From Nesterenkonia populi (lineage in GTDB: Bacteria; Actinomycetota; Actinomycetes; Actinomycetales; Micrococcaceae): a DNA stretch of 64,000 nucleotides. The notes under the pieces are model-generated. The model was not told the origin of the DNA, made no database searches, and saw nothing but the letters and a program-made list of their open reading frames with translations. Below, one piece after another: positions 14,598 to 37,137 of this stretch (the stretch's first letter is position 1; each line of letters begins with the position of its first letter). The stretch is from positions 682,001-746,000 of the forward strand of contig NZ_VOIL01000001.1 of assembly GCF_007994735.1 (NCBI RefSeq), in the 5' to 3' direction. The position numbers and the translations under genes were made by a program.

Positions 14598-14645
14598 TGG
14601 TTGCCCTGGTTCTGTGAGACGTTCGCTGAACCGCGGCGTGGACCT

Positions 14646-19314: not shown

Positions 19315-19327
19315 GACAGGAGGCGTT

Positions 19328-20248: not shown

Positions 20249-21120
20249 GCGAGGTTACGGCAGTAGAAGAGGTTGAAGGTAAACAAAAGAGCCCGCTACG
20301 GGGAAATGTGCTGGGACGGTTCACCCCGACGGGCCTGTTATCGATGTTGTTCCTTGCGGTCGTGCTCATACTTGCTTTCGTTGTGCCCTTGCTCCCGAAC
20401 ACTGATCCGTTCGCACAACAACTTGGAGCCTCACTGGTGGCCCCATTTGTAGATGCCACCCACGTGTTGGGGACAGATCAACTAGGGCGGGACATACTGA
20501 GCCGGGTTGCAGTCGCTACTCGAACCTCATTTTTGATTGGGGTTGGGTCTGTGGCAATTAGTGCTCTCCTAGGGTTGCTTCTGGGGCTTATTTCGGGTTA
20601 TCGAGGCGGGCGACTGGATAACTTCCTCATGGCCACTGCGGATATCACTCTGGCTATTCCGACGATGTTGCTACTGATCGTCGTTGTCGCTGCTCTAGGG
20701 CCTGACATCTGGATGCTTACCATTCTTTTAGGCATCATGAACTGGGTCGTTTTTGGTCGGTTAGTCCGCTCCATGGTGCTTTCTCTTCGTGAGCAGGACT
20801 TCGTGGCGGCAGCAAGATCTGCAGGCGGTTCTGCACCCTGGATAATTCGTAAGCATTTGCTCCGTGCCGTTACACCAGAGCTATTGGTTACAGCCGGTTA
20901 TCAATTAGGAATTGTCATAACTATTGAGTCTTCACTGAGCTATTTGGGACTCGGGGTACCGCCCCCTAATCCCAGTCTTGGGCTGCTAATCGCTGAAGGC
21001 CAAGCGTATTTACAAACATCGCCGCACCTGGTTATTGCGCCGGCAACAGTTGCTTTTCTCTTAATCGCAGGCGCGCAGTTTCTATCGCAGGGGGTTCGTG
21101 CAGGTAACAGGCGGCAGTAA
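20245..21120 (+). CDS. ABC transporter permease, DppC/OppC type
   Basis: A 291-residue second permease of the same importer. It has an N-terminal cytoplasmic tail, a transmembrane helix at about 30-52, the family loop HVLGTDQLGRDILSRV and the EAA loop AARSAGGSAPWIIRKHLLRA. It starts with a GTG that overlaps the stop of the first permease by four bases (GTGA), so the two are translationally coupled and expected to form a heterodimer. Confidence 0.9.
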   Translation: MSEVTAVEEVEGKQKSPLRGNVLGRFTPTGLLSMLFLAVVLILAFVVPLLPNTDPFAQQLGASLVAPFVDATHVLGTDQLGRDILSRVAVATRTSFLIGVGSVAISALLGLLLGLISGYRGGRLDNFLMATADITLAIPTMLLLIVVVAALGPDIWMLTILLGIMNWVVFGRLVRSMVLSLREQDFVAAARSAGGSAPWIIRKHLLRAVTPELLVTAGYQLGIVITIESSLSYLGLGVPPPNPSLGLLIAEGQAYLQTSPHLVIAPATVAFLLIAGAQFLSQGVRAGNRRQ

Positions 21121-21178
21121 ATGTCTGAAAATAACCAAAGAGAAATTAAATCGCAATATTAATATAGAGAGGTTATCC

Positions 21179-22723: not shown

Positions 22724-22740
22724 GGTGAATTGGTGATTAT

Positions 22741-23349
22741 ATGAATATGATTCCCTGCGAGGACACGTGCCTGATCGTAGTTGATATGCAAGGAGCTTTC
22801 CTCGATGCAAGCCTGGGCGCTCTTAGTGGGGGACCGTCGGTAGGGCCTCTCCGGAAGGCACTGCCAGGAACGCAGACGCTAGTAGAGCACGCACGCGACG
22901 CAGGTATTCCTGTCATCTTTACACGCTACGTCTACAGTCCCGGGCTTGTAGACTTCGGGGCAATCCGGACAGAGCGGGCGCGGAAGCGGTATGAAGCGCG
23001 CGCCCTGTCTCCTGAAGATCCAGGAGTGGATATAGTCCCCGAGCTTGCTCCGCGTCAGGGTGAGGTAGTCATCGACAAGTCACGTCCTAGTGCCTTCTAT
23101 GGAACGCGTCTCGAACCGGTCCTGACAGGCCTGGGCATACGCAACTTAGTAATTTGCGGCGTTACAACAAATATTTGTGTTGAAAGTACTGCTCGCGATG
23201 CCGGCCAGAGAGATTATGGAACATTCGTCGCCCGGGATGCTGTGGCGGAGTTCACTCAAGACCGTAATGATCACTCCCTTTTTGCCATCGAATGGTTTTT
23301 CGGAAAAGTTCTCTCGGTAAAAGAGATCGTAAATTGCTGGGAGGCGTGA
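22741..23349 (+). CDS. Isochorismatase-fold cysteine amidohydrolase (RutB / biuret hydrolase-like)
   Basis: A 202-residue cysteine hydrolase. The family catalytic triad is in place: Asp15 (LIVVDMQGAF), Lys113 (IDKSRPSAFYGT) and Cys146 (GVTTNICVEST). The TTNICVEST-x-RDA segment is characteristic of RutB (ureidoacrylate amidohydrolase), biuret hydrolase and related amidases that cleave C-N bonds of ureido or amide compounds. Its place inside a peptide-type ABC operon suggests it acts on the imported compound or a product of it. The substrate cannot be decided from sequence. Confidence 0.83.
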   Translation: MNMIPCEDTCLIVVDMQGAFLDASLGALSGGPSVGPLRKALPGTQTLVEHARDAGIPVIFTRYVYSPGLVDFGAIRTERARKRYEARALSPEDPGVDIVPELAPRQGEVVIDKSRPSAFYGTRLEPVLTGLGIRNLVICGVTTNICVESTARDAGQRDYGTFVARDAVAEFTQDRNDHSLFAIEWFFGKVLSVKEIVNCWEA

Positions 23350-23352
23350 CTA

Positions 23353-24975
23353 ATGAATAACCATCATCGGCTTGAAATTCAAGATTTAAGCGTGGACTTT
23401 GAAACAGCTGGAGGGATGATCCCGGGACTCCGAGAGGTCTCCTTCACCATCGGTGCCGGACACAATCTTGCAGTGGTTGGGGAATCCGGCTCTGGTAAAT
23501 CGACAACTGCCTCCTGCGTCAACGGGCTGCTGGCTGCAAATGGTTCCATTACAGCGGGGTCGATCCTCTTCGAGGGTAAAGACCTGTGCACGATGTCCCC
23601 GCGTGAGATGAGATCGATTCGTGGAAGAGAGATCGGCCTCGTCCCGCAGGATCCGATGTCCAATTTGGATCCCCTGCAGCGCGTAGGTCGGCAGATTAAG
23701 GAGGCACTCAAGGTTCATGGCCTACGGGGCAAGGCCCAAGTTGAAGAGCGGGTCGTCGAACTGTTGGATATGGTGGGTATCCCAGAACCTCGTCGACGTG
23801 CCAAGCAATTCCCTCACGAACTTTCTGGCGGAATGCGACAGCGAGTCCTGATCGCCATTGGCATGGCGTGCAGGCCAAAGCTTCTTATCGCAGACGAACC
23901 TACGAGTGCCTTGGATGTCACCGTTCAACGCTCCATCCTGGAGAGGATGGAGGAGCTTGCGGAACAGATGGGGACAGCGCTCTTGATGATCACACATGAC
24001 CTTGAACTCGCTGCTGAGCACAGCGACTACGTGGTCGTGATGAAGAACGGTCGTGTTGTCGAGGAAGGGTCTGCTAAGCATCTTTTACGGTCGCCGAGCC
24101 ATGACTACACGAGAAAGCTCATTCAAGCCTCGCCCAGTCTTGATAGTGAACCTCTCGTTAAAGTACGTGGGGAGGACCAGTCGGAGGACCCGCTCCTCGT
24201 AGTGGACAGCTTAAAGAAAGTCTATCGAACTCGAGGCGGAGGTGGTGGCTTCACTGCGGTGGAGGATTCATCCTTCGTGATCAGAGAGGGTGAAACCATA
24301 GCCATTGTGGGCGAGTCGGGCTCCGGAAAGTCGACGACTGCGAAGATGGTCCTGGGGCTCGAGGTGCCCACCGAGGGTGACGTCCTGCTAAGGGGAACAT
24401 CACTCGCAAAGATGCAGGGTAGATCACTAGTTGACTTCCGCCGCCGAGTGCAACCTGTCTTTCAGAATCCTTATGGCTCGCTCGACCCCTATTTCACTGT
24501 GCGTGACAGTATTAAAGAGCCACTGGATATTCACGAAATCGGAAACCCGGCTCAGCGGCAGGAACGCGTGCGCTGTCTCTTGGACCTGGTTGCGCTTCCT
24601 CCTACCCTTGCAGATCGCCTTCCATCAGAGCTTTCCGGAGGACAACGTCAACGCGTCGCCATAGCCCGAGCCTTAGCGCTCGATCCTGAGCTCGTTGTAC
24701 TTGATGAAGCAGTATCAGCTCTCGATGTAGTGGTGCAGAAACAGGTTCTGGAGCTTTTGGTGAGGCTGCAGGAAGAACTTGGCCTGAGCTATCTATTTAT
24801 TAGTCACGATTTGGCCGTCGTGCGGCTCATCTCCCATCGAGTTCATGTTATGAACCAGGGATATATTATTGAATCTGGTCACCCTAATACTATATTTAGT
24901 GCGCCGAAAGAGGAATATACTCGGAAGCTCGTCAGTGCTGTCCCAGGTGGCAGGGACAGCACTCTCGTTCACTGA
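23353..24975 (+). CDS. Fused ABC transporter ATPase (DppD-DppF type)
   Basis: A 540-residue protein with two complete nucleotide-binding domains. The first has GESGSGKS (43-50) and LSGGMRQR; the second has GESGSGKS at about residue 317 and LSGGQRQR. Walker B motifs are LLIADEPTSALD and LVVLDEAVSALD. The second carries Ala in place of the usual Pro and Thr region, a mild change. It powers the importer encoded just upstream. Fusion of the D and F ATPases into one chain is common in Actinomycetota. It starts after GGGAGGCG, three bases beyond the hydrolase stop. Confidence 0.92.
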   Translation: MNNHHRLEIQDLSVDFETAGGMIPGLREVSFTIGAGHNLAVVGESGSGKSTTASCVNGLLAANGSITAGSILFEGKDLCTMSPREMRSIRGREIGLVPQDPMSNLDPLQRVGRQIKEALKVHGLRGKAQVEERVVELLDMVGIPEPRRRAKQFPHELSGGMRQRVLIAIGMACRPKLLIADEPTSALDVTVQRSILERMEELAEQMGTALLMITHDLELAAEHSDYVVVMKNGRVVEEGSAKHLLRSPSHDYTRKLIQASPSLDSEPLVKVRGEDQSEDPLLVVDSLKKVYRTRGGGGGFTAVEDSSFVIREGETIAIVGESGSGKSTTAKMVLGLEVPTEGDVLLRGTSLAKMQGRSLVDFRRRVQPVFQNPYGSLDPYFTVRDSIKEPLDIHEIGNPAQRQERVRCLLDLVALPPTLADRLPSELSGGQRQRVAIARALALDPELVVLDEAVSALDVVVQKQVLELLVRLQEELGLSYLFISHDLAVVRLISHRVHVMNQGYIIESGHPNTIFSAPKEEYTRKLVSAVPGGRDSTLVH

Positions 24976-25218: not shown

Positions 25219-26055
25219 TCAGCCGGCACCTGTTGGGTCGTGAGCGCTTGTTCTTCCATGAGTTTCTGTTCCATATTCGGCTTCCGTTAGTCTTCGCTGG
25301 TAGGCCTGACTCGCGCGTTTGGCAGCTTCCACAACTAGGGCTGCATACTTATCGATTGCTTGGCCTTCTAGTCGGCTTGCCAGAAAACCGATGCTGAGAG
25401 AACCAGCCGGAAGCCCATCCGCGTTAGTGATGGGGGCAGCGATGCCTTGGGACAGGGGGACGTGTTCTGAGCGAGTTGTAGCCCACCCCTGCTCTTTGAT
25501 GCTTTCTAAGCGATTCCTCAGGACCTCTGGGTCCGTTGGGGTGCGTGGCGTGAGAGACGGGATGGGAAGCGAGAGCACATCGTTGACCTGCTCTGAAGGA
25601 AGCTGGGCGAGCATACAGATTCCGCTGGCTCCGACCGTCAGGGGTGTATGTTCGCCGATCGATACGGTGATTCGAATGCGTTGCATGCTTTCAATCTGCG
25701 CCACGTAGCAGCGCCTGTAGCCGATTCGGGCAGAGAGCGTAGTTGTTTCACCAGTTACTTCAGCAAGTTTTGATATTGCAGGCATGGCTGCTGCCCTTAG
25801 GTCGTCTTCTGCAGACGCGCGCATGCCTAGAGCAACAGATGCAGGACCAAGGGCATAAGCCCTTCGGGTGGTGTCATAGCGGACTAGGCCTGTCTGTACC
25901 AGCTGCTGCAGGATTCGATGCACTACAGACTTGCTCAGCCCTAGCTCACGCGCCAGCTCGGAGACGCCTTGCCATCGTCCTGCGCCGTTGAAGGCCAGCA
26001 GTGTCTGCGCGACTCGCCCAGTGACAGATGGAGAAGTTGTTGAAGTGTGTTCCAA
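25219..26055 (-). CDS. IclR family transcriptional regulator
   Basis: A 278-residue regulator with an N-terminal winged helix-turn-helix (about 14-75: RVAQTLLAFNGAGRWQGVSELARELGLSKSVVHRILQQLVQTGLV) and a C-terminal IclR effector domain (about 85-255). It reads from a TTG at 26055 preceded by GAAGGGAG at proper spacing. It is divergent from the ten-gene operon starting at 26230, and the 174-base region between them holds two IclR-like palindromes. It most likely controls that operon in response to a small aromatic or carboxylic effector (inference from the family). Confidence 0.88.
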   Translation of the reverse strand: MEHTSTTSPSVTGRVAQTLLAFNGAGRWQGVSELARELGLSKSVVHRILQQLVQTGLVRYDTTRRAYALGPASVALGMRASAEDDLRAAAMPAISKLAEVTGETTTLSARIGYRRCYVAQIESMQRIRITVSIGEHTPLTVGASGICMLAQLPSEQVNDVLSLPIPSLTPRTPTDPEVLRNRLESIKEQGWATTRSEHVPLSQGIAAPITNADGLPAGSLSIGFLASRLEGQAIDKYAALVVEAAKRASQAYQRRLTEAEYGTETHGRTSAHDPTGAG

Positions 26056-26094
26056 CGTGGGGGCTCCCTTCGTACTGCAAGAAGCATAACCTCT

Positions 26095-26113
26095 TGTTCT
26101 ATTCAGTGGAACA
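26095..26113. promoter_or_regulatory. Imperfect palindrome, possible IclR operator
   Basis: TGTTCTATTCAGTGGAACA pairs TGTTC with GAACA with one mismatch in the seven-base arms. It lies 40 bases upstream of the IclR start, within the divergent region, where autoregulation sites are usual. Confidence 0.45.
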
Positions 26114-26196
26114 CTAGTTTACAGTTCACCATTCCGTAACAAGCGAGTAATGCCAGCTAAACGCCTCTTTTCTAGCATTAGAGAAGTCTCACAAGG

Positions 26197-26209
26197 TCCG
26201 CTCAGCGGA
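26197..26209. promoter_or_regulatory. Perfect short palindrome, possible IclR operator for the transport/catabolic operon
   Basis: TCCGCTCAGCGGA is a 13-base palindrome with a single central base. It lies just upstream of the ribosome site (AGGGAG) of the ABC ATPase gene. The TCCGC...GCGGA form resembles reported IclR-family sites. Confidence 0.45.
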
Positions 26210-26229
26210 ACGCAATTTAGGGAGTCGCA

Positions 26230-27039
26230 ATGTCTGCCACTGCAGTGGAGCAATCGATCCTGGAGATCGATGATGTTTCGTACGCCTATAAGCCGTCTCT
26301 GCCTTCAGTGATGGAACATGTCTCCCTTGCCCTCAGGGAGGGCGAGTTCTTCGTGCTTCTGGGTCCTTCCGGTTGTGGGAAGACGACAATCCTCAATCAG
26401 GTGGCAGGGTTTGAGCTCCCCAGCGCTGGGGAGATTCGACTGCAAGGAAAGCCCATCAGTGCTCCTGGGCCCGATAGGTCAGTTGTTTTTCAGGGACATG
26501 ATTCGCTCCTTGGATGGCTCACTGTGCGGCAGAACGTGGACTTCCCCCTGAAGGTGGCAGGTCTTGCTCCGGGCAAGAGGAAAGAGCAGGTCAAACGGGC
26601 GCTGACGCTGGTGGAGTTAGAGAAACAGGCAGACAAGTACCCGCATGAACTCTCGGGCGGCATGAAGCAGCGAGTCCAAATTGCTCGGGGCCTCGCCACT
26701 GATGCGCCGACGGTGCTAATGGACGAGCCGTTCGGCGCGCTGGACGCCCAGACGCGAGCTACTTTGCAGCATGAGCTTTCCGACATTTGGTCTCGGGAGC
26801 GTCGAACGATTCTGTTTATTACCCATGACATTGCCGAGGCGGTGATTCTTGCGGACCGTGTCGGAGTAATGAGCGCCGGGCCGGCCGCTTATCTGCATTC
26901 AGTGATGGAGATCGGTCTGGAGCGGCCCAGGCAGAGGACGTCTGAGTTTACAGAGCGCGTCAACGAGCTGGAGGCGAGGGTGACAGCGGCTAAAGCACGT
27001 CAGCCATTTGGCGTTCCGAATGAGCGGGCAGCTGCATGA
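26230..27039 (+). CDS. ABC transporter ATPase, taurine/nitrate/sulfonate (SsuB/TauB) type
   Basis: A 269-residue ATPase with GPSGCGKT (Walker A), LSGGMKQR (signature) and [11 protein letters not shown] (Walker B), as in SsuB/TauB/ThiZ proteins. It is the first gene of the right-hand operon, with AGGGAG before the ATG. Its partners are the two permeases that follow and the lipoprotein at 30200. The family imports sulfonates, nitrate, pyrimidine precursors, phthalate-like acids and other small compounds, so the class does not define the substrate. Confidence 0.9.
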   Translation: MSATAVEQSILEIDDVSYAYKPSLPSVMEHVSLALREGEFFVLLGPSGCGKTTILNQVAGFELPSAGEIRLQGKPISAPGPDRSVVFQGHDSLLGWLTVRQNVDFPLKVAGLAPGKRKEQVKRALTLVELEKQADKYPHELSGGMKQRVQIARGLATDAPTVLMDEPFGALDAQTRATLQHELSDIWSRERRTILFITHDIAEAVILADRVGVMSAGPAAYLHSVMEIGLERPRQRTSEFTERVNELEARVTAAKARQPFGVPNERAAA

Positions 27040-27884
27040 GTGCGCTCCTTGCTGAGGGCTCGGGGCCGAGGGCTGGCTATAAGCCAGTTGTTTCTTCGGG
27101 GCACTCTCTTCGTAAACGCCTGTCTGATTCTCCTAAAGTTTTAGGAGTTTTAGGAATCTTTTTGGCCACTATGGCATGGCAGATTACCGCGCTGTCAATC
27201 GATAATTCAATGGTACTTCCAGCCTTTTCTTCGGTGGTCGTGGCAGTAACATCAATGGCGGTAGAATCCGGCATGCGGGAACATCTTTTCGATACGCTTT
27301 GGCGAGTAGTCGTGGGGTTCGGTGCGGGCTCAGGAGCAGGGCTTTTGGTCGGTGCCGCTATTGGTTCCTTTGGTCTAGCCAGGCGAATTCTTAACCCCTA
27401 TCTGAATTTCCTGCGATCTGTCTCTCCTATAGCTTGGATTGTGCCGGCCACGATCTGGTTGGGGATCGGAGAGCCGCCCATCCAATTTGTTGTCATTTAC
27501 GCAACGGTCTTCCCGGTGGCTATTAACACCATCTCGGGGATCGCCTCGGTGCACAACGATAAGATTCGAATGGCGCGTACTTTTGGAATGAGTTCGCTCG
27601 GAATTTTCCGTTCGGTTCTTATCCCCTCCGCGGTGCCGTACACGCTCGTGGGGGCGCGTCTTGCGCTCGGATTAGCGTTTATGGCCGTTGTCGGTGCCGA
27701 AATGATTATTGGACGGTCAGGTTTGGGGTTCCTGATCTTTGACGCTCGAACAACGTTCAGTACGGACCTGATGTTCGCATGCATCCTCATTCTTGGCGTT
27801 ATCGGTTACCTGGGAGATCTTCTCTTCGTGATGCTTAGAAAGACGATCTTTGGCCGCTATTACGCAGGGAGCGCAGACCTATGA
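27036..27884 (+). CDS. ABC transporter permease 1, SsuC/TauC type
   Basis: A 282-residue permease with about six hydrophobic helices and an EAA-type loop (ARTFGMSSLGIFRSVLIPSAVPYTLVG) that contacts the ATPase. It overlaps the ATPase gene by ATGA. Two different permeases in one such importer are less common than a homodimer, so this and the next protein probably form a heterodimer. Confidence 0.88.
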   Translation: MSALLAEGSGPRAGYKPVVSSGHSLRKRLSDSPKVLGVLGIFLATMAWQITALSIDNSMVLPAFSSVVVAVTSMAVESGMREHLFDTLWRVVVGFGAGSGAGLLVGAAIGSFGLARRILNPYLNFLRSVSPIAWIVPATIWLGIGEPPIQFVVIYATVFPVAINTISGIASVHNDKIRMARTFGMSSLGIFRSVLIPSAVPYTLVGARLALGLAFMAVVGAEMIIGRSGLGFLIFDARTTFSTDLMFACILILGVIGYLGDLLFVMLRKTIFGRYYAGSADL

Positions 27885-28729
27885 CAGCAGGAACCGTGCA
27901 AACTGTGCAGAAGGGGTCAGCAATCCATGGAGGAGCTGAGCTTCGAGGTCTTCTGGTGCGTTGGGGGCGTAGCAGCGTGATGCTTCTGACCTCACTGTTC
28001 GTCATAGGGGTTGTCTGGGAGGTGCTTTCGCGCAGCTACGGTGTCCCCTTCTTGTTCCCAAGACCCATGGACGTTGTCGACAATCTGGTGGCGAACACGG
28101 CTAATGGACGTCTCATCGAAGCGACCGGCGCAAGCCTCGGCCGTATCTTCTCCGGATTCCTGCTCGGATCATTGTTAGGGGTGTTATTAGGTCTACTCTT
28201 CGGCGCAAGCAAGATCTTCCTCGGGCTCACGGCACCTTTCGTGACGTTCTTCCGCTTCGTTCCTCCGTTGGCGTGGTTTGCGCCAGCCCTCGTCTGGTTC
28301 GGTGCAGGCGAAACCTCAAAGATCGTTCTGGTCATGTACACCAGTGTGTTCGTCGTTGCCCTTAGCACCTTGGAGGCGCGGACCGGAATTCCTCAGGATA
28401 TGCAGAGAATGGCTAGCGCGACGGGAATTTCCTGGTGGCAACGCATGATGTGGGTCACCTTGCCAGGAAGTGTGCCTTATATCATCGCAGGTGCACGCAT
28501 CGCTCTGGGCAACGCCTACATGACTATCGTCTCGGCGGAGATGCTGGGAGCCGCCTCGGGCCTCGGCGTCACCATCAACAACGGTATGACCACCACGAAC
28601 ATCCCCTCGGTCTTCAGCGCGATACTCGTTCTGGGAATCCTCGGGCTCGTAAGCGACCGAATCTTCGTCATCCTGATGAACACTCTAGGCCGGAAGTATC
28701 AGAGCAGCCCTGGCCAGGCAGTCGCATGA
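27881..28729 (+). CDS. ABC transporter permease 2, SsuC/TauC type
   Basis: A 282-residue permease related to the previous one, with the EAA-type loop ASATGISWWQRMMWVTLPGSVPYIIAG. It overlaps the upstream permease gene by four bases and the downstream MFS gene by ATGA (28726-28729). Part of the same importer. Confidence 0.88.
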   Translation: MTAGTVQTVQKGSAIHGGAELRGLLVRWGRSSVMLLTSLFVIGVVWEVLSRSYGVPFLFPRPMDVVDNLVANTANGRLIEATGASLGRIFSGFLLGSLLGVLLGLLFGASKIFLGLTAPFVTFFRFVPPLAWFAPALVWFGAGETSKIVLVMYTSVFVVALSTLEARTGIPQDMQRMASATGISWWQRMMWVTLPGSVPYIIAGARIALGNAYMTIVSAEMLGAASGLGVTINNGMTTTNIPSVFSAILVLGILGLVSDRIFVILMNTLGRKYQSSPGQAVA

Positions 28730-30213
28730 GCCCGTCCCTGACCCTCGAAGCATCGGGCAAGGCTGCATGGTGGGTGCTAATCGCCACCAGTGTGAATGTG
28801 ATTCTGGTCTTCGTCAATGCTACAAGTCTTATCATTGTGATGCCTGTCGTCGCGAATGATTTTCAGGCTTCCCCAGCGCAATCAACGTGGTTCATCCTCG
28901 CCTATCAGCTTGTGCTGACGGCCTTCATAGTGGTCTTCGGCCGTTTGGCAGACATTTTCGGTCGGAAGGCACTCTATGTCTTCGGGGTAGGTGTCTTCGC
29001 CGTTTCCAGCGTTGTTGCGGGAGTGGTCGGCAACGTTGATCTGTTCGTACTCGCTCGGCTGGTCCAAGGTCTCGGAGCGGCGGCGATCATCTCCAACACC
29101 ACCGCCATCCTCACGGATGTCTTCCCGCAGGGAAAGATGCCGATGGCGCTGGGGATGAATGCCACCTCGGCAGCCTTGGGGCAGGTGCTGGGACCGGTGG
29201 TCGGCGGCATAACAACGGAGTACTTCAGCTGGCGGTGGATCTTTATCGCCTCCTCTGCTCTGACAGTGTTCAGTCTGCTTCTGTCCTGGAAACTGGTTCC
29301 GGGAAGGACTGGCAGAGGCCGGGACAAGTTTGATGTATTCGGATCAGTGCTCCTAATTTCCAGCCTGGGAGCGTTCGTCGCTGGGATGGCGGACGGGTCT
29401 GCCACAGGATGGAGCTCCGCTCAAGGGCCAATACTCATCATGGTTGCCGTGGCCCTGATGGTGGCCTTCATCTATACACAGGCAAAGCGCAGCACCCCCC
29501 TAGTCGACCTGTCTCTGTTCCGAATCCCGAAGCTTGGGCGACGCTATACCGCAGTCTTTCTCTGCGGCTTCAGCCACTACGCGGTGATATTGCTGCTGTC
29601 TATCTATCTTCAAGCGGTTGAAGAGCTCTCTGCTTTTGAAGTGTCGCTCATCGCTATTGCCTCGCCCCTGGCGACGATGGCAGCCGCTCAGTGCGCTGGA
29701 CGACTTGTGGGAAAAGTCTCTACCGGATTCTTAGCCTCACTTGGAATGGCATTGGTCTCAACGGCATCTTTAACTCTCATCGTCTTGCTTCAGCTGGGAC
29801 ACCTGGGCGGATACACGTATATCGCGCTGGTTGCGCTAGGACTGGGAATTGGGCTGTTCATGACTCCCAACACCAGCCTCATCATGTACATCACGCCTGT
29901 GGAACGTCGAGGAGTATCGAACGGCATACGCTCGACGGCCCTCAACCTTGGCTTCCTCACGACGACAGCCGTATCGCTGGCCTCCGCCACGCTTTTCCTT
30001 AGTCCTGGGGCGAGAGCTGCGATCTATGCCGGCGAATATCCCTTGCCCAGCAGCGTGCACCCGGACTTCGTCCTAGGGCTGCAAGCAGCGTTTGCCCTCC
30101 TTGCGCTGACTGCGCTCATCGGAGCTGTGCTTGGCAGCGATCGCCGCCCCCGGAAAACCCCCGAGATACCCCCCAACCCATCACTCGCAGGAGGAAATGA
30201 TGCACATTTCTAA
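28726..30213 (+). CDS. MFS transporter, DHA2 (14-helix) type
   Basis: A 495-residue major facilitator. The N-terminal half contains the antiporter-type pattern SLIIVMPVVANDFQASPAQSTWFILAYQL and the cytoplasmic loop GRLADIFGRKALY between helices 2 and 3. The length and the number of hydrophobic stretches fit the 14-helix DHA2 group, usually proton-driven exporters. The start is the ATG overlapping the permease stop. An exporter in an uptake and breakdown operon could remove a product or protect against a toxic substrate or intermediate (inference). Confidence 0.87.
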   Translation: MSPSLTLEASGKAAWWVLIATSVNVILVFVNATSLIIVMPVVANDFQASPAQSTWFILAYQLVLTAFIVVFGRLADIFGRKALYVFGVGVFAVSSVVAGVVGNVDLFVLARLVQGLGAAAIISNTTAILTDVFPQGKMPMALGMNATSAALGQVLGPVVGGITTEYFSWRWIFIASSALTVFSLLLSWKLVPGRTGRGRDKFDVFGSVLLISSLGAFVAGMADGSATGWSSAQGPILIMVAVALMVAFIYTQAKRSTPLVDLSLFRIPKLGRRYTAVFLCGFSHYAVILLLSIYLQAVEELSAFEVSLIAIASPLATMAAAQCAGRLVGKVSTGFLASLGMALVSTASLTLIVLLQLGHLGGYTYIALVALGLGIGLFMTPNTSLIMYITPVERRGVSNGIRSTALNLGFLTTTAVSLASATLFLSPGARAAIYAGEYPLPSSVHPDFVLGLQAAFALLALTALIGAVLGSDRRPRKTPEIPPNPSLAGGNDAHF

Positions 30214-31213
30214 GCAGAATCCCATGAAGGCAGCTGTAGCAACCGTTTCAGCCGCGTCGCTTCTGACGCTTTCGGCATGCGGCGACGGCGGTGGCAACGC
30301 CGATCACCCAGAGCCTGATGCCTCTATCGTGGTCGGAGTAGCACCAGACTTTTTCTTCACCCATCTCTATGTGGCAGTGCAAGAAGACTTCTTTGCTGCG
30401 GAGGGGATCGAGGCAGAGCTCGTCGAATTCCCTTCCGGGATGGAAGCTACTGAGGCCATCACCGCGGGGCAGGCCGACATCACCAGCACCACCTCCTCCA
30501 CCCTCAGCCTGCTGGCGGGATCAGGCAGCGACGTGACAGCGCTGGCTTCCAACCTTGTGGGCGACGGCTGGTACGGCATCGTTGCCAACGAGGAGGCGGG
30601 AGACGTCAGTGACTCTTCAGACCTTGAGGGTCTGACCCTTGCAGCTCCTCACGGTTCGGTGCTCGACATGCACGTGCGCAATTTCCTCGAAAGTCACAAC
30701 CTCAGCGCCGAAGACATTGATTACGAAGACGTCAACGCGGCTCAGCTGGTTACAGGCCTAACGCGGGGGGACTTTGACGCGGCATCCATGTGGGAGCCGA
30801 ATGTCAGCCAGTCCCTTGCAGAGACCGAGGGTTCCAGCGTGGTCCTGGACTCGGAAGAGACGATGCCCGTCACCGGCTATACCGTCGGTGGTTCAGACGT
30901 CGTAGAAGACGAAGAGCTTGCTGTTCGTGTCCTCACCGCGTTGGACAACGCCATTGACTGGATCGAGGAGAACCCGGACGAGGTGCTTGACCTGGTGATG
31001 GAGAACAGCGGCATCGACGATGAGAGTCTCGCACAGACCGTTCAGGACAAGGTCAGCTACCGGCTCGACTTCAGTGAGGAAGAAGTTGATGAGATTTATG
31101 AGTCTCGCGACTTCTACGAAAGCCTCGGTATGACGGACGCTACGGATGACGACGTGACCCAAATGTATGACACCAGCACCTTCGAAGAGTGGAACTCTTC
31201 CGGAGACTCATGA
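30200..31213 (+). CDS. ABC transporter substrate-binding lipoprotein (SsuA/NMT1/THI5-like)
   Basis: A 337-residue protein with a lipoprotein signal ending LTLSAC and a body of the NMT1/SsuA family (ASIVVGVAPDFFFTHLYVAVQEDFFAAEGIEAELVEF, in two parts; ITAGQADITSTTSSTLSLLAG). It would capture the solute outside the membrane for the two permeases and the ATPase upstream. The start at 30200 is five bases from AGGAGG; an adjacent ATG at 30197 is possible. It overlaps the end of the MFS gene by 14 bases. Known ligands of the family include alkyl sulfonates, pyrimidines, nitrate and aromatic acids. Confidence 0.9.
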   Translation: MHISKQNPMKAAVATVSAASLLTLSACGDGGGNADHPEPDASIVVGVAPDFFFTHLYVAVQEDFFAAEGIEAELVEFPSGMEATEAITAGQADITSTTSSTLSLLAGSGSDVTALASNLVGDGWYGIVANEEAGDVSDSSDLEGLTLAAPHGSVLDMHVRNFLESHNLSAEDIDYEDVNAAQLVTGLTRGDFDAASMWEPNVSQSLAETEGSSVVLDSEETMPVTGYTVGGSDVVEDEELAVRVLTALDNAIDWIEENPDEVLDLVMENSGIDDESLAQTVQDKVSYRLDFSEEEVDEIYESRDFYESLGMTDATDDDVTQMYDTSTFEEWNSSGDS

Positions 31214-32592
31214 GCATTCTCTCCCAGAAAAGTGCGAGGCCTCCTGCCCCGGAGGTTGCCACGTCAATTCCCTCAGTGGCGGAAGGCCTCGCCGAGTTTG
31301 CGGCTGAGTACTCCAGCCCCGATCGTTCGCTGCCCCCAGAGGTATCTGACGCTCTCGACCGGGTCTTGGAGAATACACTGGCCGTGATGCTGGCGGGAGC
31401 CAGCACGGAGCATTGCGTCGCTTTGGCTCAAGCATGGGGAGGACGTAATGGAGTGCCCCTGCCTGTAGATCTTTCGTTGGAGAGCGCGTGCTGGCTAGGG
31501 GGTGTCGCTGCGGTCTCGATGGAGATGGACGAGGGGCACCGGGAAGCTGGAGGTCATCCGGCAGCACAATGCTTCCCCGCAGTTCTGTCTCTGGCTGCCG
31601 TTCGAAATGCGCCTGGCTGGCTTCTCCAAAGGGCACTGCTTATCGCCTATGAAGTGACCGCGAGGATAGGCAGCGTAGCGGACCTTCCTCCTGAAGCGCA
31701 CCCGCACGGTACGGCGGGAGCCGTAGGAGCTGCCGCAGGATGTGCTGCGCTTCTGGGACTTCCTCGTGCCCAGGTTAAGGAGGCGATTCGGGCTGGCCTG
31801 GCTATGCCAATTGCCACGTCGTGGTCTGCCGTTCACGCAGGCGGTGCCGTAAGGGACCAGTGGGTAGGTGCGGCCAACCTCAACGGTCTCAACGCCAGCA
31901 GGTTCGCTGCCTCAGGCCTGCAAGCGGGTGAGGCGCTCGGCCTTGGAGGGTTAGGGCGTCTGGACCGGGCGCACGTCGGAGGTTCCCACTCCAGCCAGTG
32001 GTTTATCACCGGAAACTACTTCAAGAGGCACAGTGCTTGTGCCTATCTGCACGGCTCCATCGACGCTGTGCTCAAGCTCCGCCAGGAAATGCACATGGGC
32101 AGACAAGAACTGGCCACCGTAAGAGAACTGACTGTGGAAGTGCCGCCTTTTGCGACTGACTTCTGCCGTGAAGAGCTCACGACCCGGCACAGTGCATGGT
32201 TCTCGATCCCGTTTGCCGTAAGTTCCGCTCTTCTGTACGGCGATGTCAGCTACGTCCGCTCGACACCCGAGGCATGGACACAGGAGTTCAGGAAGGCCGT
32301 CAGCCGCGTCAGGGTGAGGCCCAGCCACGATTTTTCCGGTCTCACCTCCGCCTCGCGTCCCGCCCGTGTCACTGCAGAGCTGGAAGACGGTCGAGCCATC
32401 GCCGTAAGCGTCGATCACCCCTGCGGGGACCAGGAGCTTACGCCGTTCGAACAGAATGAATGGGACGCACTGACCAGCGCCCACCTGGCTATGTCTCCTA
32501 CCAGCCTCACTAAGGAAGAGCTCCGGCTGCTGATTGCATCGCTGGATACCAGATCATCGCGCGCGCTCACTGATGTGCTGACCCAGCAGTAA
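31210..32592 (+). CDS. MmgE/PrpD family protein
   Basis: A 460-residue protein of the family of 2-methylcitrate dehydratase, cis-aconitate decarboxylase and the more recent iminodisuccinate epimerase. Recognisable segments are ENTLAVMLAGAS near residue 50, EMDEGHREAGGHPAAQCFPAVL at about 98-120, and HGTAGAVGAAAGCAALLGL. These place it in the family but not in a subgroup. It overlaps the lipoprotein stop by ATGA. A dehydratase/hydratase, decarboxylase or epimerase step on a small di- or tricarboxylate-like intermediate is the expected type of chemistry. Confidence 0.85.
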   Translation: MSILSQKSARPPAPEVATSIPSVAEGLAEFAAEYSSPDRSLPPEVSDALDRVLENTLAVMLAGASTEHCVALAQAWGGRNGVPLPVDLSLESACWLGGVAAVSMEMDEGHREAGGHPAAQCFPAVLSLAAVRNAPGWLLQRALLIAYEVTARIGSVADLPPEAHPHGTAGAVGAAAGCAALLGLPRAQVKEAIRAGLAMPIATSWSAVHAGGAVRDQWVGAANLNGLNASRFAASGLQAGEALGLGGLGRLDRAHVGGSHSSQWFITGNYFKRHSACAYLHGSIDAVLKLRQEMHMGRQELATVRELTVEVPPFATDFCREELTTRHSAWFSIPFAVSSALLYGDVSYVRSTPEAWTQEFRKAVSRVRVRPSHDFSGLTSASRPARVTAELEDGRAIAVSVDHPCGDQELTPFEQNEWDALTSAHLAMSPTSLTKEELRLLIASLDTRSSRALTDVLTQQ

Positions 32593-32621
32593 CCCCTCTA
32601 CCTCCGACAGGAGAAAACAGC

Positions 32622-33299
32622 ATGACACTATCCCAAGACCACGACTGGAATAACGAAGTGGCCAAGATTCAAGAACTGCGTGAACAACGGACGAAGATCG
32701 GCTCGGGGCGAAAGCCCGCCGTCGTGGTTGTTGACTTCCAGAGAGCATTCACACAGCACGAGAAGATTGGTGAGTCGACTGCGACGGTGCTCAAAAACAC
32801 GGCGGTCCTCCTGGAGAGAGCTCGTCAGGCGGGGGTCCCAGTGATCTACCTCGCGATGATCCTTGACTCACTGGAAGACAGGATGCTTGCCCAGCGCGTT
32901 AGGTCCTCTCTTACAGAACGCTGCGAAAGAGGAAATCCGTGGACAGACTTCGACGAGCGGGTCGCCCCGCAGCCCGGGGACCATGTGGTGGAGAAGACCG
33001 TTGCTTCAGGCTTCTACAAGACAAGCTTGGAAGACCTTCTCGAAGAACTGAATGTTGATGAGCTCGTGATGACAGGCACTTCTACAAGCGGGTGTGTGCG
33101 AGCCACCGTGGTCGACGCCGCCTATAGAAGCTACCGAGTCAGCGTGGTTGAAGAATGCTGCGACGACTTCCGCACGCTCTCTGGAGAAGTTTCCCTGTGG
33201 GATATGCAGGATCGTTTCGGAGACGTAGTCTCCCTTGAGGAGACGCTCCAGCGTTTCAAAGCTTTGACAGGGAGTGCTTCTGTAGGGACTGCCGCATGA
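32622..33299 (+). CDS. Isochorismatase-fold amidase (N-carbamoylsarcosine amidase / maleamate amidase-like)
   Basis: A 225-residue cysteine hydrolase with the full triad: Asp38 (VVVVDFQRAF), Lys125 (VVEKTVASGFYKT) and Cys158 (GTSTSGCVRATVVDA). The STSGCVRAT-x-VDA block is the hallmark shared by N-carbamoylsarcosine amidohydrolase and maleamate amidase NicF, so the likely reaction is removal of ammonia from a carbamoyl or half-amide group. It has its own AGGAGAAA ribosome site. The gene order (just before two deacetylase-fold proteins) suggests consecutive ring opening and amide hydrolysis. Confidence 0.85.
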   Translation: MTLSQDHDWNNEVAKIQELREQRTKIGSGRKPAVVVVDFQRAFTQHEKIGESTATVLKNTAVLLERARQAGVPVIYLAMILDSLEDRMLAQRVRSSLTERCERGNPWTDFDERVAPQPGDHVVEKTVASGFYKTSLEDLLEELNVDELVMTGTSTSGCVRATVVDAAYRSYRVSVVEECCDDFRTLSGEVSLWDMQDRFGDVVSLEETLQRFKALTGSASVGTAA

Positions 33300-34228
33300 T
33301 CGCCACCGATGACCGACTGATCTATGCGCCTATGCCCGGGCGCCCTCAGGTGACTTGGCCAGAGGGAAAAACCGTTGCGGTATGGCATGCCCCCAACGTA
33401 GAGCATTACGACTATGTTCCTGCGTACAGTGCTTCTCCGCAGGGACGTGTTCCTGCCCCTGACGTGCAGCACTATATGCATCGGGACTACGGAAACCGGG
33501 TAGGTTTCTGGCGGATGCTTCGAGCGGTGGATCGGTTTGAGATTCCTTCCACTGTTTCGCTGAGTTTGGCTCTGCTCGAGGAAGTTCCAGAGGTAAGAGA
33601 GGCCATGCTTGAACGTGACTGGGAGATCATGAGCCACGGTATCTCTAACCTCCGCACCGTCTATGGGTACACCGAAGAACAAGAGAGTGAGTTCTTCGAC
33701 ATTTCTCAGCGATTGGCTGAAACTTACGCCGGTCGGCGAATCAAGGGAATGCTCGGGCCTAAAATTTCCGGAACTGTGCAGACCAGCGATCTAATGGTTA
33801 AGCACGGAATGACATATCACGCCGACTGGGTCCATGACGAACAGCCCCGACCGCTGCGGGTCGAGAGTGAGCAGCCGCTGGTCTCTATCCCGTACAGCTA
33901 CATGCTGAACGACGTGCCCCTTCTCTTCGCCAAGCATTATTCCGGCGAGTACTTCGTGCAGATGGTGATTGCCCAGATCAGCAGGATGCTCAGAGATGCA
34001 GAGGAAGATGGGCAGGGCCGCGTGGCATGTGTCGCGACTCATCCCTTCATCATCGGGCAGCCTGGCATGCAGAAGCACCTTGAAGAGATTTTCGACTACC
34101 TCCGCAGGGATGGCCGTGTCTGGTTGGCCACGGCGGGGCAGATCACCGACCACTACATCGCACACCACTACAAGGACCAGGTATCACATGCGATGTCTTT
34201 GGATACTAAGACGACCGGGGGTGCATAA
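33296..34228 (+). CDS. Polysaccharide deacetylase-fold protein, PuuE/HpPgdA-like (catalytic-type)
   Basis: A 310-residue NodB/polysaccharide-deacetylase-fold protein of the subgroup containing the metal-independent allantoinase PuuE and Helicobacter PgdA-type proteins. The subgroup features are kept: NVEHYDY with Glu36, YGNRVGFWRML at 65-75, the MSHG histidine His114, and the late motif ATHPFIIGQP with His249. There is no signal peptide, so it should act in the cytoplasm and not on cell wall. Family members open cyclic amides or ureides as well as deacetylate sugars. It overlaps the amidase stop by ATGA. I favour a cyclic amide hydrolase role. Confidence 0.8.
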   Translation: MIATDDRLIYAPMPGRPQVTWPEGKTVAVWHAPNVEHYDYVPAYSASPQGRVPAPDVQHYMHRDYGNRVGFWRMLRAVDRFEIPSTVSLSLALLEEVPEVREAMLERDWEIMSHGISNLRTVYGYTEEQESEFFDISQRLAETYAGRRIKGMLGPKISGTVQTSDLMVKHGMTYHADWVHDEQPRPLRVESEQPLVSIPYSYMLNDVPLLFAKHYSGEYFVQMVIAQISRMLRDAEEDGQGRVACVATHPFIIGQPGMQKHLEEIFDYLRRDGRVWLATAGQITDHYIAHHYKDQVSHAMSLDTKTTGGA

Positions 34229-34230
34229 CA

Positions 34231-35193
34231 ATGACAAGCAGGAAGATTGTGGACAATCGGGGCGTCACGGTTTACGCCCCAGACTTGCAACGCACCTATG
34301 AGCCGGCTCGTGCAGACTGGTTCCTTCCCAGCGGAAAGAAGCTCGCCGTCAGCATCCTCATGCATGCTCCAGCATATATGGACAACGTTCCTGAGGGAGC
34401 CTTGAAGCCGCTGGAGATGCAGGGAGGCGTCGGAAGGGACACCAGTGAACCTCGGATCGGCCAGGTTGTCAGGCTGTCCCAATGGGACTTCGGTCTCACC
34501 GTAGGTATTTTTCGGCTTATGTCCATCGCAGAAGCCGTAGGAGTGCCCTTTGCAGTAACGCTTGACCAATATGGTGTGGAGCATGCACCCGGCCTGGCCG
34601 GAGAAGTAGGGCGTAGGGCCCCCGAAATTGTTGCTAGGGGGCGTGCCGCGAACCTCGTTTTCAGCGAGGAAATCTCACCCGAAAAGGAGCTCATCACCAT
34701 CCGAGAGTGTCTGGGCACGATTCGTGAGGCGACAGGGCGGACGCCTGCCGGGTGGTTCTCTCCGGAGCGTGCAACCTCCAGCCGCACCCATGCCCTGTTA
34801 GCTCAGGCAGGGATTTCTTGGTTCGGTGAGTGGCCTGTTGATGAGACCCCTGTGGTGGTTCCGACTGAGCCGAGTGAGGTGGTAAGCCTGCCCTTCTCAC
34901 TGGAGGCTGAGGACATGTTCGCACTTTATACGCGCGGTATGAGATTTGACGACTACGAGCAGTTCCTTAAAGACACGGTGCAGCAGCTGCTTGAAGACGC
35001 GGATATCGTAGGATCTCGTTTCTTAGGGCTCAGCTGGTTCGGCTGGGTGCTCGGGCAGGCGTGCTTCGCCGATGTTGCGGAGAGATTCCTTGCCTGGCTG
35101 GTGGAGCAACCTGAGGTTGAGATTCTCCTTCCTTCCGAGGTCGCCCCGTTAGCAGGCCGCGCTGTATCGGCAGACTCTGCAGGAGGCGTATGA
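34231..35193 (+). CDS. Polysaccharide deacetylase-fold protein with degenerate active site
   Basis: A 320-residue paralogue of the preceding protein, lying two bases after it. The two align through FGLTVGIFRLMSIAEAVGVPFAVTL (given here in overlapping family terms: region 87-111) and the following helix. The functional positions have changed: the NVEHY segment is APAYM, the MSHG histidine is Arg136 in IVARGRAAN, and the late ATHPFI histidine region is LSWFGWVLGQ. No replacement histidines line up. It is therefore probably a non-catalytic partner or regulator of the first protein, or an enzyme with different chemistry. No signal peptide is present. Confidence 0.75.
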   Translation: MTSRKIVDNRGVTVYAPDLQRTYEPARADWFLPSGKKLAVSILMHAPAYMDNVPEGALKPLEMQGGVGRDTSEPRIGQVVRLSQWDFGLTVGIFRLMSIAEAVGVPFAVTLDQYGVEHAPGLAGEVGRRAPEIVARGRAANLVFSEEISPEKELITIRECLGTIREATGRTPAGWFSPERATSSRTHALLAQAGISWFGEWPVDETPVVVPTEPSEVVSLPFSLEAEDMFALYTRGMRFDDYEQFLKDTVQQLLEDADIVGSRFLGLSWFGWVLGQACFADVAERFLAWLVEQPEVEILLPSEVAPLAGRAVSADSAGGV

Positions 35194-36272
35194 ATCCCAA
35201 GATTTTCAGCCCCATCACCCTGCGAGGCATCGAAGTGTCCAACCGCGTGTGGTTGTCCCCCATGTGCATGTATGCCTGCCCTGATGAAGATGGAGCCGTC
35301 GGTGATTTCCATCTTGCTCATTATGGGGCGGTAGCCCTTGGTGGGTCAGGGATGCTCATCACGGAGGCCACTGCGGTGCGCCCAGAAGGAAGAGTCACTC
35401 CCCAGGACGCCGGGCTGTGGGCGGCAGAGCAGATGTTTGCGTGGAAAAGAGTGACAGACTTCGTGCATGCGGCTGGCTCTCGAATCGCAGTGCAGCTGGC
35501 GCATGCCGGCCGAAAAGGAAGCAAATATCGCAACCTCCCTGGTGACGCGCCCGATCGAGGGAGTGTGGCCGCCGAACAAGGTGGTTGGAAAACCAAAGGA
35601 GCTACAAGGCAGGCATTTGGGTATTTGTCCGCTCCTGAAATTCTCTCTGAGGAAGAAGTTTGGGAGATCATCCGAAGTTTCGCGGACGCTGCTGAAAGAG
35701 CCGAAAAAGCGGGTTTCGATGCTGTGGAGCTTCATGGAGCACATGGCTACCTCCTTCACGAGTTCCTCTCCCCCTTGACTAATCAACGTGATGATCAATG
35801 GGGTGGAAGTCCCGAGGCGAGGGAATCTTTCCTTCTGAAGACGGTCCGGGCAGTGCGTGAAGTGTTGTCTCCTGAGACGCCGCTGTTGGTGCGCCTCTCA
35901 GTCAGCGACGTCACTGACGGGGGTATGACTGCGGAAGCATCGGCAACGCTTGCTGAGCGACTTGCAGAACAGGGTGCCGACTTCATCGATTGCTCCTCCG
36001 GTGGGTTGCTTCCCAACGTGGACTACAAGGCCTACCCGGGGTATCAGGTAGCTGACGCTCGCACAGTACGCAGCTCCGGCGTGCCGGTCGGAGCAGTTGG
36101 CCTGATCACAGAGCCCGAGCAGGCAGCTGAGATTGTTGAGGATGGAAGTGCAGATGTCGTACTGCTCGGCAGGGCAATGCTGAGAGACCCGCACTGGCCG
36201 CGTCGAGCAGCGAACGCTCTTGGAGCAACGCAAGCAGTGCCTCCGCCACCCCAATATCACCGAGCCTGGTGA
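35190..36272 (+). CDS. Old Yellow Enzyme family NADH:flavin oxidoreductase (YqjM-like)
   Basis: A 360-residue FMN enzyme of the class II (YqjM-type) ene-reductases. Key residues are Cys26 and Tyr28 in SPMCMYA, His105 in VQLAHAGRKG, and the substrate-binding pair His182/His185 in ELHGAHGYLLHEFLSP. These enzymes reduce activated C=C bonds next to carbonyl, imide or nitro groups with NAD(P)H; maleimides are classic good substrates in vitro. Overlaps the preceding gene by ATGA and is the last gene of the ten-gene operon and of the island. No terminator is visible before proC. Confidence 0.9.
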   Translation: MNPKIFSPITLRGIEVSNRVWLSPMCMYACPDEDGAVGDFHLAHYGAVALGGSGMLITEATAVRPEGRVTPQDAGLWAAEQMFAWKRVTDFVHAAGSRIAVQLAHAGRKGSKYRNLPGDAPDRGSVAAEQGGWKTKGATRQAFGYLSAPEILSEEEVWEIIRSFADAAERAEKAGFDAVELHGAHGYLLHEFLSPLTNQRDDQWGGSPEARESFLLKTVRAVREVLSPETPLLVRLSVSDVTDGGMTAEASATLAERLAEQGADFIDCSSGGLLPNVDYKAYPGYQVADARTVRSSGVPVGAVGLITEPEQAAEIVEDGSADVVLLGRAMLRDPHWPRRAANALGATQAVPPPPQYHRAW

Positions 36273-36285
36273 AGCAGGGGCCCAG

Positions 36286-36291
36286 TAGGGT
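36286..36291 (+). promoter_or_regulatory. -10 hexamer of proC (leaderless-type)
   Basis: TAGGGT ends six bases before the ATG at 36298. The matching -35 region would fall in the end of the island's last gene, so the right edge of the island probably lies within the proC promoter. Confidence 0.45.
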
Positions 36292-36297
36292 TGGAAT

Positions 36298-37137
36298 ATG
36301 ACTTCTGCGAAGATTGCGATGCTTGGCCTCGGGTCCATGAACGGGGCGATCCTCGCCGGGCTGCTGGGCTCCGGGGTGTCACCCGCCGACGTGACCGTCA
36401 CCAACCGGTCTGAGGCCTCCGCGCAGCGGGCCCGGGACGAGCACGGCGTCACTGCCCTGTCCGAGGAGAGCACCCCGGAGGCCAACCTGAAGGCTGCTGC
36501 CGAGGCCGACGTCGTCTTCCTCGGGGTGAAGCCCCACCAGATTACCGACCTCTGCGCCGAGATCCGTGAGGCGCTCAAGCCCGGCGCCGTCGTCGTCTCC
36601 GTAGCCGCCGCCGTCACCCTCGAGATGATGCAGGAGGCTCTGCGCGAGGGGCAGCCGGTGATCCGCACCATGCCGAACACCCCGATGTCCGTCGGCCTCG
36701 GCGTCGTCGGGCTGGCTCCCGGCGCCCACACCATGCGCGAGCAGACGGAGACGGTGGCTGAGCTGCTGGGCGCCTCCGGCAGTGTCCACATCCTCGATGA
36801 GCCGCAGATCGACGCGCTCACCGGGGTCGCCGGCTCCGGGCCCGCCTACGCGTTCTACCTCGCTGAGCACATGGCTGCGGCGGGCGTGGAGATGGGCCTG
36901 GCCCCTGAGCTCGCGGCGGACCTCGCCGCCCAGACCCTCTACGGTGCCGGGAGGATGCTTGTGGAGAACGGGGGTGCCGCCGACGCCGCCCAGCTGCGCC
37001 GCAACGTCAGCAGCCCCAACGGCACCACCGAGCAGGCGATCCGCACCTTCGACGATGCCGGGATGGCAGAGACCATCCGCGCCGGCGCCAAAGCCTCCGC
37101 CGCCCGGGCAGGAGAGATCAGCCGGTCGCTTTGCTGA
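36298..37137 (+). CDS. proC: Pyrroline-5-carboxylate reductase
   Basis: A 279-residue enzyme that catalyses the last step of proline synthesis, reducing 1-pyrroline-5-carboxylate with NAD(P)H. The Rossmann loop MLGLGSMNGAI and the C-terminal signature region (DALTGVAGSGPAYAFYLAEHM ... SSPNGTTEQAI) are intact. It returns to high G+C right after the island. Its last 20 bases overlap the convergent glutaredoxin-like gene. Confidence 0.95.
   Translation: MTSAKIAMLGLGSMNGAILAGLLGSGVSPADVTVTNRSEASAQRARDEHGVTALSEESTPEANLKAAAEADVVFLGVKPHQITDLCAEIREALKPGAVVVSVAAAVTLEMMQEALREGQPVIRTMPNTPMSVGLGVVGLAPGAHTMREQTETVAELLGASGSVHILDEPQIDALTGVAGSGPAYAFYLAEHMAAAGVEMGLAPELAADLAAQTLYGAGRMLVENGGAADAAQLRRNVSSPNGTTEQAIRTFDDAGMAETIRAGAKASAARAGEISRSLC

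Follow-up and report, generated by a model that had tools for sequence, protein, structure and literature searches.

Which compound might a bacterium assimilate with an operon that joins a solute importer, an exporter, an ene-reductase, two PuuE-like proteins, an isochorismatase-type amidase and an MmgE/PrpD protein? This question is raised by a locus of Nesterenkonia populi (NCBI RefSeq assembly GCF_007994735.1), which we analyzed within a window of 64,000 nucleotides (contig NZ_VOIL01000001.1, positions 682,001 to 746,000 of the forward strand; coordinates below are those of the window). An earlier note on this DNA, made from the letters alone, had proposed the opening of a cyclic imide or ureide. 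Its cyclic-imide reading is the best supported, and the interpretation as a whole is partly supported. The operon is best explained, with a probability slightly above even, as having been gained by horizontal transfer and as serving the assimilation of a small nitrogen heterocycle that is, or becomes, a cyclic imide. The evidence centers on the two adjacent PuuE-like proteins, here termed A and B, and on the amide hydrolase beside them.

The operon consists of ten open reading frames (ORFs) on the plus strand, from 26230 to 36272, whose family assignments were confirmed by comparison with Pfam, NCBIfam and the PDB. This agrees with the one-strand operon behind an IclR regulator, mostly with ATGA overlaps, that had been described previously: six of its nine junctions are ATGA overlaps, one is an overlap of 14 bases, and two are gaps (2 and 29 bases). 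Two starts were refined, that of the binding protein to 30200, where AGGAGG lies upstream, and that of the MmgE gene to 31210, where an ATGA overlap results. The IclR gene is divergent and lies 174 bp from the operon. The genes are as follows; loci of other genomes are cited by number (L003 and so on).

25219 to 26055, minus strand: IclR-family regulator (PF01614, 113.7 bits; PF09339, 44.7 bits)
26230 to 27039, plus strand: ATPase of an ATP-binding cassette (ABC) transporter, Ssu/nitrate/taurine type, with 72-73% identical counterparts in L012 to L014
27036 to 27884, plus strand: ABC permease 1 (PF00528)
27881 to 28729, plus strand: ABC permease 2 (NCBIfam SaoP/NtrB-type matches, below cut-off)
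28726 to 30213, plus strand: major facilitator superfamily (MFS) transporter, DHA2/EmrB-like (TIGR00711, 179.4 bits against a cut-off of 230.2; PF07690)
30200 to 31213, plus strand: NMT1/SsuA-like solute-binding protein (PF09084, PF13379)
31210 to 32592, plus strand: MmgE/PrpD protein of a superfamily of dehydratases, decarboxylases and epimerases (PF03972, PF19305)
32622 to 33299, plus strand: Iso2, an amidohydrolase of the isochorismatase superfamily (PF00857, 134.2 bits)
33296 to 34228, plus strand: PuuE-like protein A, presumably the catalytic subunit that opens the ring (TIGR03212, 101.8 bits)
34231 to 35193, plus strand: PuuE-like protein B, degenerate partner (TIGR03212, 49.7 bits)
35190 to 36272, plus strand: YqjM-class ene-reductase of the OYE family (PF00724, 266.9 bits)

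Because stop-free runs reached 302 codons in 200 shuffles, length alone is no proof of the shorter genes, whose reality rests on homology.

A and B are homologous to the PuuE superfamily, as would be expected of PuuE-related cyclic imide hydrolases, and both fall far under the PuuE allantoinase cut-off of TIGR03212 (424.6 bits); B has no match in Pfam. Their predicted folds were modeled with AlphaFold2 at fair to good confidence (predicted local distance difference test 80.8 and predicted template modeling score 0.85 for A; 79.6 and 0.82 for B). The two proteins differ in the residues that align with two histidines of PuuE, for which we assume a catalytic role in A. Both histidines (H114 and H249 in the A protein of the window) are kept in all 25 aligned A rows, four of which come from loci with a single PuuE-like gene. 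B, by contrast, retains both in only one of 21 rows, drawn from 20 loci (that of L029), and has lost both in 13, so that one or both are missing from the B protein in 20 of the 21 pairs. The alignment covers the loci except L041 to L052, L008, which closely resembles L007, and L014, whose frames are split. In the window, B carries R and F at these positions, and a profile alignment agrees. A reading of the two PuuE-fold proteins as equivalent enzymes is thus not supported. The loss of the histidines from B, which is new here, suggests an enzyme with a degenerate partner, and we infer from the sequences that B may be a pseudoenzyme that binds A. All A rows lie on one side of a branch of the tree, with support (93/78) that is not firm; because the tree separates the A rows, the B rows are suggested to be old paralogues rather than local copies. 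Distances among A proteins correlate with those among B proteins over the 21 pairs (r = 0.94; none of 2000 permutations as high), a result that co-inheritance alone would also yield.

The earlier note had proposed looking for co-occurrence of these families in other genomes, and the pair does recur. A protein search with B returned 93 proteins, one of them the window's own, with 87 at 50% identity or more. A scan of a genome collection, based on the B alignment and two peptide patterns, yielded 12 loci (13 with the window), and A stands immediately before B in all 12, although A of L014 matches in two pieces. Iso2 immediately precedes A in 10 of the 13 loci, and in the other three a nitrilase-type hydrolase immediately follows B. 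The core trio of Iso2, A and B is thus found again in other genomes, and since operons of the same families recur, their grouping is beyond chance. Other components recur as well: an IclR match of at least 46% identity in 10 of 13 loci (9 of the 12 relatives), the OYE-family reductase in 9 (8 of 12) and MmgE in 7 (6 of 12). The last two occur together in L007, from Microbacterium arborescens DSM 20754. The type of importer varies, being Ssu-like in four of the 13 and of the branched-chain type in six (assigned by clustering and matches, with Pfam run on the members from L003, L005 and L011 only). Uptake is nevertheless a recurring theme, because an importer is found in 10 of the 13 loci.

Matches on plasmids extended this sample. 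B matched 62 plasmid records (the best 20 of the 62 listed) and A matched 490 (the best 30 of the 490 listed). We examined 20 plasmid loci, eight chosen by hand from the A matches listed and 12 from the B matches listed; of the other eight B matches listed, four were already included, three were near-duplicates and one was an unannotated record. Together with five distant genomes of the phylum that have weak matches to a B profile, this made 25 further loci. A and B are in tandem in 11 of these, giving 24 tandem loci overall; the other 14 carry one PuuE-like gene each, L047 having in addition a B-like match that is not in tandem. Within the cluster of L012 (Puerhibacterium), a second, diverged A-B pair is present at 13614 to 15455 of that locus. 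In L014 (Cellulosimicrobium sp. CUA-896), the matches to a permease, A, the nitrilase and an amidase are split (8205 to 11887 and 15919 to 17207), through decay or sequencing errors.

The pair is regularly accompanied by an enzyme that hydrolyzes C-N bonds. Such a hydrolase directly adjoins A and B in 22 of the 24 tandem loci, and in the two exceptions an amidase (L022) or an isochorismatase (L030) lies within about 4 kb. Among loci with a single PuuE-like gene, it is a direct neighbor in one of 14 (L033). The difference (Fisher p = 2.5e-7) is indicative only, given the kinship of the loci and the choice of some of them by hand. This place is taken by amide hydrolases of four unrelated families: PF00857 (isochorismatase), PF00795 (nitrilase), PF00710 (an asparaginase, in L016) and PF01425 (an amidase-signature enzyme, in L019, which has an isochorismatase as well); the amidase of L022 is likewise of the amidase-signature type. 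Because hydrolase folds replace one another while the position stays, the product of A and B is likely to be an amide, and this replacement is the strongest evidence for a step of amide hydrolysis. Iso2 itself has aligned D, K and C residues, which we take to be the catalytic triad of amidohydrolases of the isochorismatase superfamily. Its nearest solved relatives are N-carbamoylsarcosine amidohydrolases (26st, 9e-29; 1nba, 3.8e-25), followed by 3ot4/3uao (2.8e-21). It scores below the equivalog cut-offs for RutB (55.8 of 378 bits), BiuH (53.4 of 370) and the bifunctional nicotinamidase (33.2 of 174). Its relatives reach 78% identity among the matches listed, and many carry the jgi name maleamate amidohydrolase, which is annotation only.

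If an amide is hydrolyzed, what becomes of the carbon skeleton? We compared the loci with references for enzymes that act on diacids (MmgE, LeuCD, PEP-mutase/ICL, HMGL, CaiB, EutA/arylmalonate-decarboxylase type and HpcH). At least one such enzyme is near the pair in 15 of the 24 tandem loci (in the window by Pfam; in L029 and L030 at 29-38% identity only), and matches at 29-31% occur in three of the 14 single-gene loci (L047, L048 and L051). LeuCD is beside the pair in L017, L018, L023 and L044, PEP-mutase/ICL-type lyases are present in L017 and L023, and a CaiB-type CoA-transferase in L017 and L018. HMGL-type proteins occur in L018 and in L017, where HMG-CoA lyase is matched at 276.8 bits, over its cut-off of 246, and succinate-glutarate CoA-transferase at 229.2 bits, under its cut-off of 750. 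L004 and L006 combine a EutA/arylmalonate-decarboxylase-like protein with a PEP-mutase-type match. These neighbors are consistent with a carbon product that is a dicarboxylate, either unsaturated or hydroxylated. In L006, one open frame (4508 to 6601 of that locus) holds domains of FAD monooxygenase type and of PEP-mutase/methylisocitrate-lyase type. Upstream oxidation enzymes are found in a few loci: a Mo-hydroxylase in the Arthrobacter plasmid locus L016, where it is followed by the A-B pair and then by the asparaginase, and a FAD_binding_3 monooxygenase-type protein in L006.

In the window, the diacid-type enzyme is the MmgE/PrpD protein, the only PF03972 match in the genome. It is assigned by the Pfam superfamily domains only, scoring 20.3 bits against the PrpD cut-off of 950 (NF042438), and its PDB relatives are Bacillus subtilis IRG1 (1.5e-11) and IDS-epimerase (2.2e-10). 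The ene-reductase shows similarity over its full length, has PDB relatives 7o0t, 3gr7 and 1z41 at E <= 5e-89, and carries MCMY and HGAHGY motifs that place it in the YqjM class, for which MCMY and HxxHxY are, we presume, characteristic.

From these observations, we propose the following route. The NMT1-type ABC importer would take up the compound, and the ene-reductase could saturate a ring C=C bond where one is present. The PuuE-like pair would then hydrolyze the imide to a half-amide, with A as the catalytic subunit and B probably as a structural partner. The isochorismatase-type amidase would free ammonia and leave a dicarboxylate, which the MmgE/PrpD protein might rearrange, dehydrate or decarboxylate. 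The MFS protein may rid the cell of excess acid or of an intermediate that is toxic, and the IclR protein may sense the substrate or product. What the data show directly is the gene content, the family assignments, the recurring trio, the exchange of amidases, the histidine losses in B and the insertion; the individual reactions, the association of A with B, their sequence in the route and the substrate are inferred. Maleimides of tetrapyrrole breakdown and tautomers of hydroxypyridines are candidate compounds. The core of ring opening and amide hydrolysis, on an imide rather than a ureide, is likely, at somewhat better than an even chance; the full route, with reductase and MmgE in fixed order, is perhaps correct but doubtful. 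Of the previously proposed sequence, the gene neighborhoods, with hydrolases of four families and diacid enzymes near the pair, support a PuuE-type protein that opens the ring and an amide hydrolysis after it; the exact order of steps is not supported.

A wider proposal is more tentative. A and B may form an obligate heteromer of a catalytic subunit and a histidine-less pseudoenzyme, which, with a swappable amide hydrolase, would be a widespread, uncharacterized bacterial module converting cyclic imides (for example, alkyl-maleimides or hydroxypyridine tautomers) to dicarboxylates and ammonia, and feeding either a reductive branch (OYE, MmgE) or a hydrating or lyase branch (LeuCD, PEP-mutase/ICL type, HMGL type). 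If so, a general imide-to-diacid module would be hidden behind a trio whose present annotations are "polysaccharide deacetylase", "hypothetical protein" and "isochorismatase". Many annotations would be corrected, degradation of imides and pyridine-type compounds would gain a marker, and the PuuE superfamily would gain an enzyme/pseudoenzyme pair.

Several points weigh against a cyclic-imide route. A is closer to PuuE (3e-14) than to 3qbu (1.5e-9), the solved relative named for the fungal imide hydrolase HxnM. No biochemistry of A or B was found in the open-access literature. The sequence stretches of L004, L006 (Arthrobacter citreus DSM 20133) and L010 contain neither OYE nor MmgE, and neither is seen in L013, where OYE cannot be judged because the stretch ends 2.6 kb past B; hence, these two enzymes are not obligatory. 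Nor do they combine easily in a single linear route, since a hydratase-type MmgE would have no double bond left to hydrate once the reductase had saturated it. No diacid-type enzyme was detected in nine of the 24 tandem loci (L003, L010, L013, L014, L016, L019, L021, L022 and L050), and the count of 15 is descriptive, in that the references were chosen after some loci had been seen (partly from L006, L017 and L023) and the stretches differ in length. Finally, the N-carbamoylsarcosine amidohydrolases nearest to Iso2 would fit a ureide too.

The alternative that survives best is a special case of the cyclic-imide reading and shares its probability. The ring may have six members (glutaconimide or glutarimide) and come from a hydroxypyridine, in the manner of the fungal hxn pathway, rather than being a five-membered maleimide or succinimide. 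We regard this as possible, at well under an even chance. The hxn precedent opens 3-hydroxypiperidine-2,6-dione (PMC9304392), the Mo-hydroxylase of L016 would suit such an origin, and the two CoA-related matches of L017 would suit methylglutaconate. However, PEP-mutase/methylisocitrate-lyase-type lyases and LeuCD equally suit a substituted maleate or malate, and no ring hydroxylase is seen in the window operon.

A cyclic ureide of the hydantoin, allantoin or methylhydantoin type is unlikely. The PuuE pair would in this case produce an N-carbamoyl acid for Iso2, acting as an N-carbamoylsarcosine-type amidase. PuuE is an allantoinase and its family is the only NCBI family that A matches; the solved relatives of Iso2 agree, and on a Kocuria plasmid a lone A-like gene has, at a distance of about 3.7 kb, a gene annotated as N-carbamoylsarcosine amidohydrolase. 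Yet A and B score far too low for the allantoinase cut-off, the asparaginase or amidase-signature enzyme by the pair in other loci better suits a half-amide, the jgi names (annotation only) favor maleamate, and a route ending in an amino acid has no place for diacid hydratases and lyases. Purine or allantoin degradation as the main explanation was rejected, given the same low scores and the recurrence of diacid enzymes.

Less probable still is detoxification of a reactive compound such as an electrophilic maleimide, in which reductase and hydrolases would inactivate, the MFS protein would pump out, and nutrition would be secondary: the MFS protein resembles efflux families, though with scores under their cut-offs, and the reductase has solved relatives that include xenobiotic reductases, but the ABC importer comes first in the operon and importers recur beside the pair. 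Sulfonate or taurine uptake was rejected, the binding protein scoring 127 bits against an SsuA cut-off of 163.5 (TIGR01728).

How did the putative cyclic-imide operon come to this genome? It forms the right half of a 21.8-kb insert, a context, along with its second group of genes, that had gone unremarked.

13701 to 14525: isomerase-like gene, left flank
14526 to 36297: insert, delimited by a step in G+C content at third codon positions (GC3)
14646 to 24975: other half of the insert, with a FAD_binding_2 protein, an Amidohydro_2 protein, an acyl-CoA ligase and a GntR regulator on the minus strand, and a Dpp-type ABC importer and a second isochorismatase (22741 to 23349) on the plus strand
36298 to 37137: proC, right flank

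GC3 is 0.51-0.68 in the 20 insert genes (14646 to 36272) and 0.83-0.92 in nine flanking genes. The B profile has no match in 97 other genomes of the genus, family and order at E <= 1e-40, and among 395 others in the phylum it matches five at E <= 1e-30, each of these matches being much weaker than that in the window. Among 30 genomes of the genus, including this one, the isomerase-like gene was matched in 28 and proC in 29. The two flanks share contig and strand in 25; of the remaining five, three carry them on separate contigs, one was matched for proC alone and the last for neither. In the 24 other genomes with both flanks on one contig and strand, the gap is below 300 bp in 17, 0.6 and 1.1 kb in two, and 7.0-12.5 kb in five. 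All four of these large inserts that were scanned with Pfam (L034, L036, L037 and L038) contain HsdM- and HsdR-type genes; the ORFs of the fifth, L035, are nearly the same sizes as those of L034. The slot is therefore an insertion hotspot of the genus, which in four or more genomes has received genes for type I restriction-modification and in this one a catabolic insert. A role of the operon in defense was rejected, none of A, B, Iso2 and MmgE being matched by PADLOC.

The other half of the insert was considered as part of the same pathway and rejected, there being no clear tie to the A-B pair in 11 related genomes (that of L007 not included). At the thresholds used, its Amidohydro_2 protein has matches in two of the 11 (34-39%) and its isochorismatase in seven, at 30-37% only; because its proteins match these genomes rarely or weakly, we treat it as a separate module. 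Its FAD_binding_2 protein resembles flavocytochrome c or TcuA, below cut-offs. The start of proC lies 25 bp past the last stop of the operon (36272 to 36298), so proC may be co-transcribed with the insert or may have been severed from its old promoter. The scans for promoters (2 sites) and terminators (9 sites) found about as many as in shuffles (3.7 and 8.2), and no Rfam element was matched within 14400 to 37000. Between the IclR gene and the operon (26056 to 26229) are imperfect palindromes (for example, 26167 to 26186), candidate operators listed without a chance control.

No description of this cluster was found in the open-access literature, some listed titles having been set aside as seemingly unrelated. 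Its parts can be compared with known systems. PuuE allantoinase (3cl6, TIGR03212) is homologous, and A keeps its two aligned histidines; A and B differ in their low family scores and tandem arrangement, and no purine genes were seen in the operon. Iso2 shares its superfamily and D-K-C residues with maleamate amidohydrolase (3ot4/3uao, presumably NicF) and N-carbamoylsarcosine amidohydrolase (1nba, 26st), but is distant from both (best E 9e-29). In the methylcitrate cycle, PrpD, of the MmgE/PrpD family, and the aconitase-type AcnD substitute for one another; MmgE and LeuCD may likewise swap beside the A-B pair, although the window MmgE is far from PrpD. The cyclic imide hydrolase of Pseudomonas putida is not known to have a paired degenerate subunit. 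That enzyme (AAY98498, cited in PMC9304392) belongs to a PuuE-related superfamily, and the chemistry proposed here would be alike.

The closest parallel is in Aspergillus nidulans, which degrades nicotinate by way of the OYE-family HxnT, the cyclic imide hydrolase HxnM and the amidase HxnN (PMC9304392). HxnM, which the authors relate to PuuE, shares 64.2% identity with a cyclic imide hydrolase homolog from P. putida (PMC9304392). Because this precedent is published, the earlier statement that the gene set matches no pathway was too strong. There are also differences: the fungal pathway is eukaryotic, uses one imidase, has an HxnN that was modeled on FAAH1 and is not an isochorismatase, and has upstream hydroxylases HxnS, HxnX and HxnV plus HxnW (PMC9304392). 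Of the proteins of the operon and the island that were compared with Pfam or NCBIfam, none is a pyridine hydroxylase, the search having been confined to these. Conversely, the excerpts mention neither an MmgE protein nor an ABC importer (PMC9304392), whereas the window cluster has both, as well as a second PuuE-like protein. The cluster joins an OYE-family reductase, a PuuE-related putative imidase and an amidase, which the hxn pathway unites under common regulation (PMC9304392), and resembles that pathway in logic without being a member of it.

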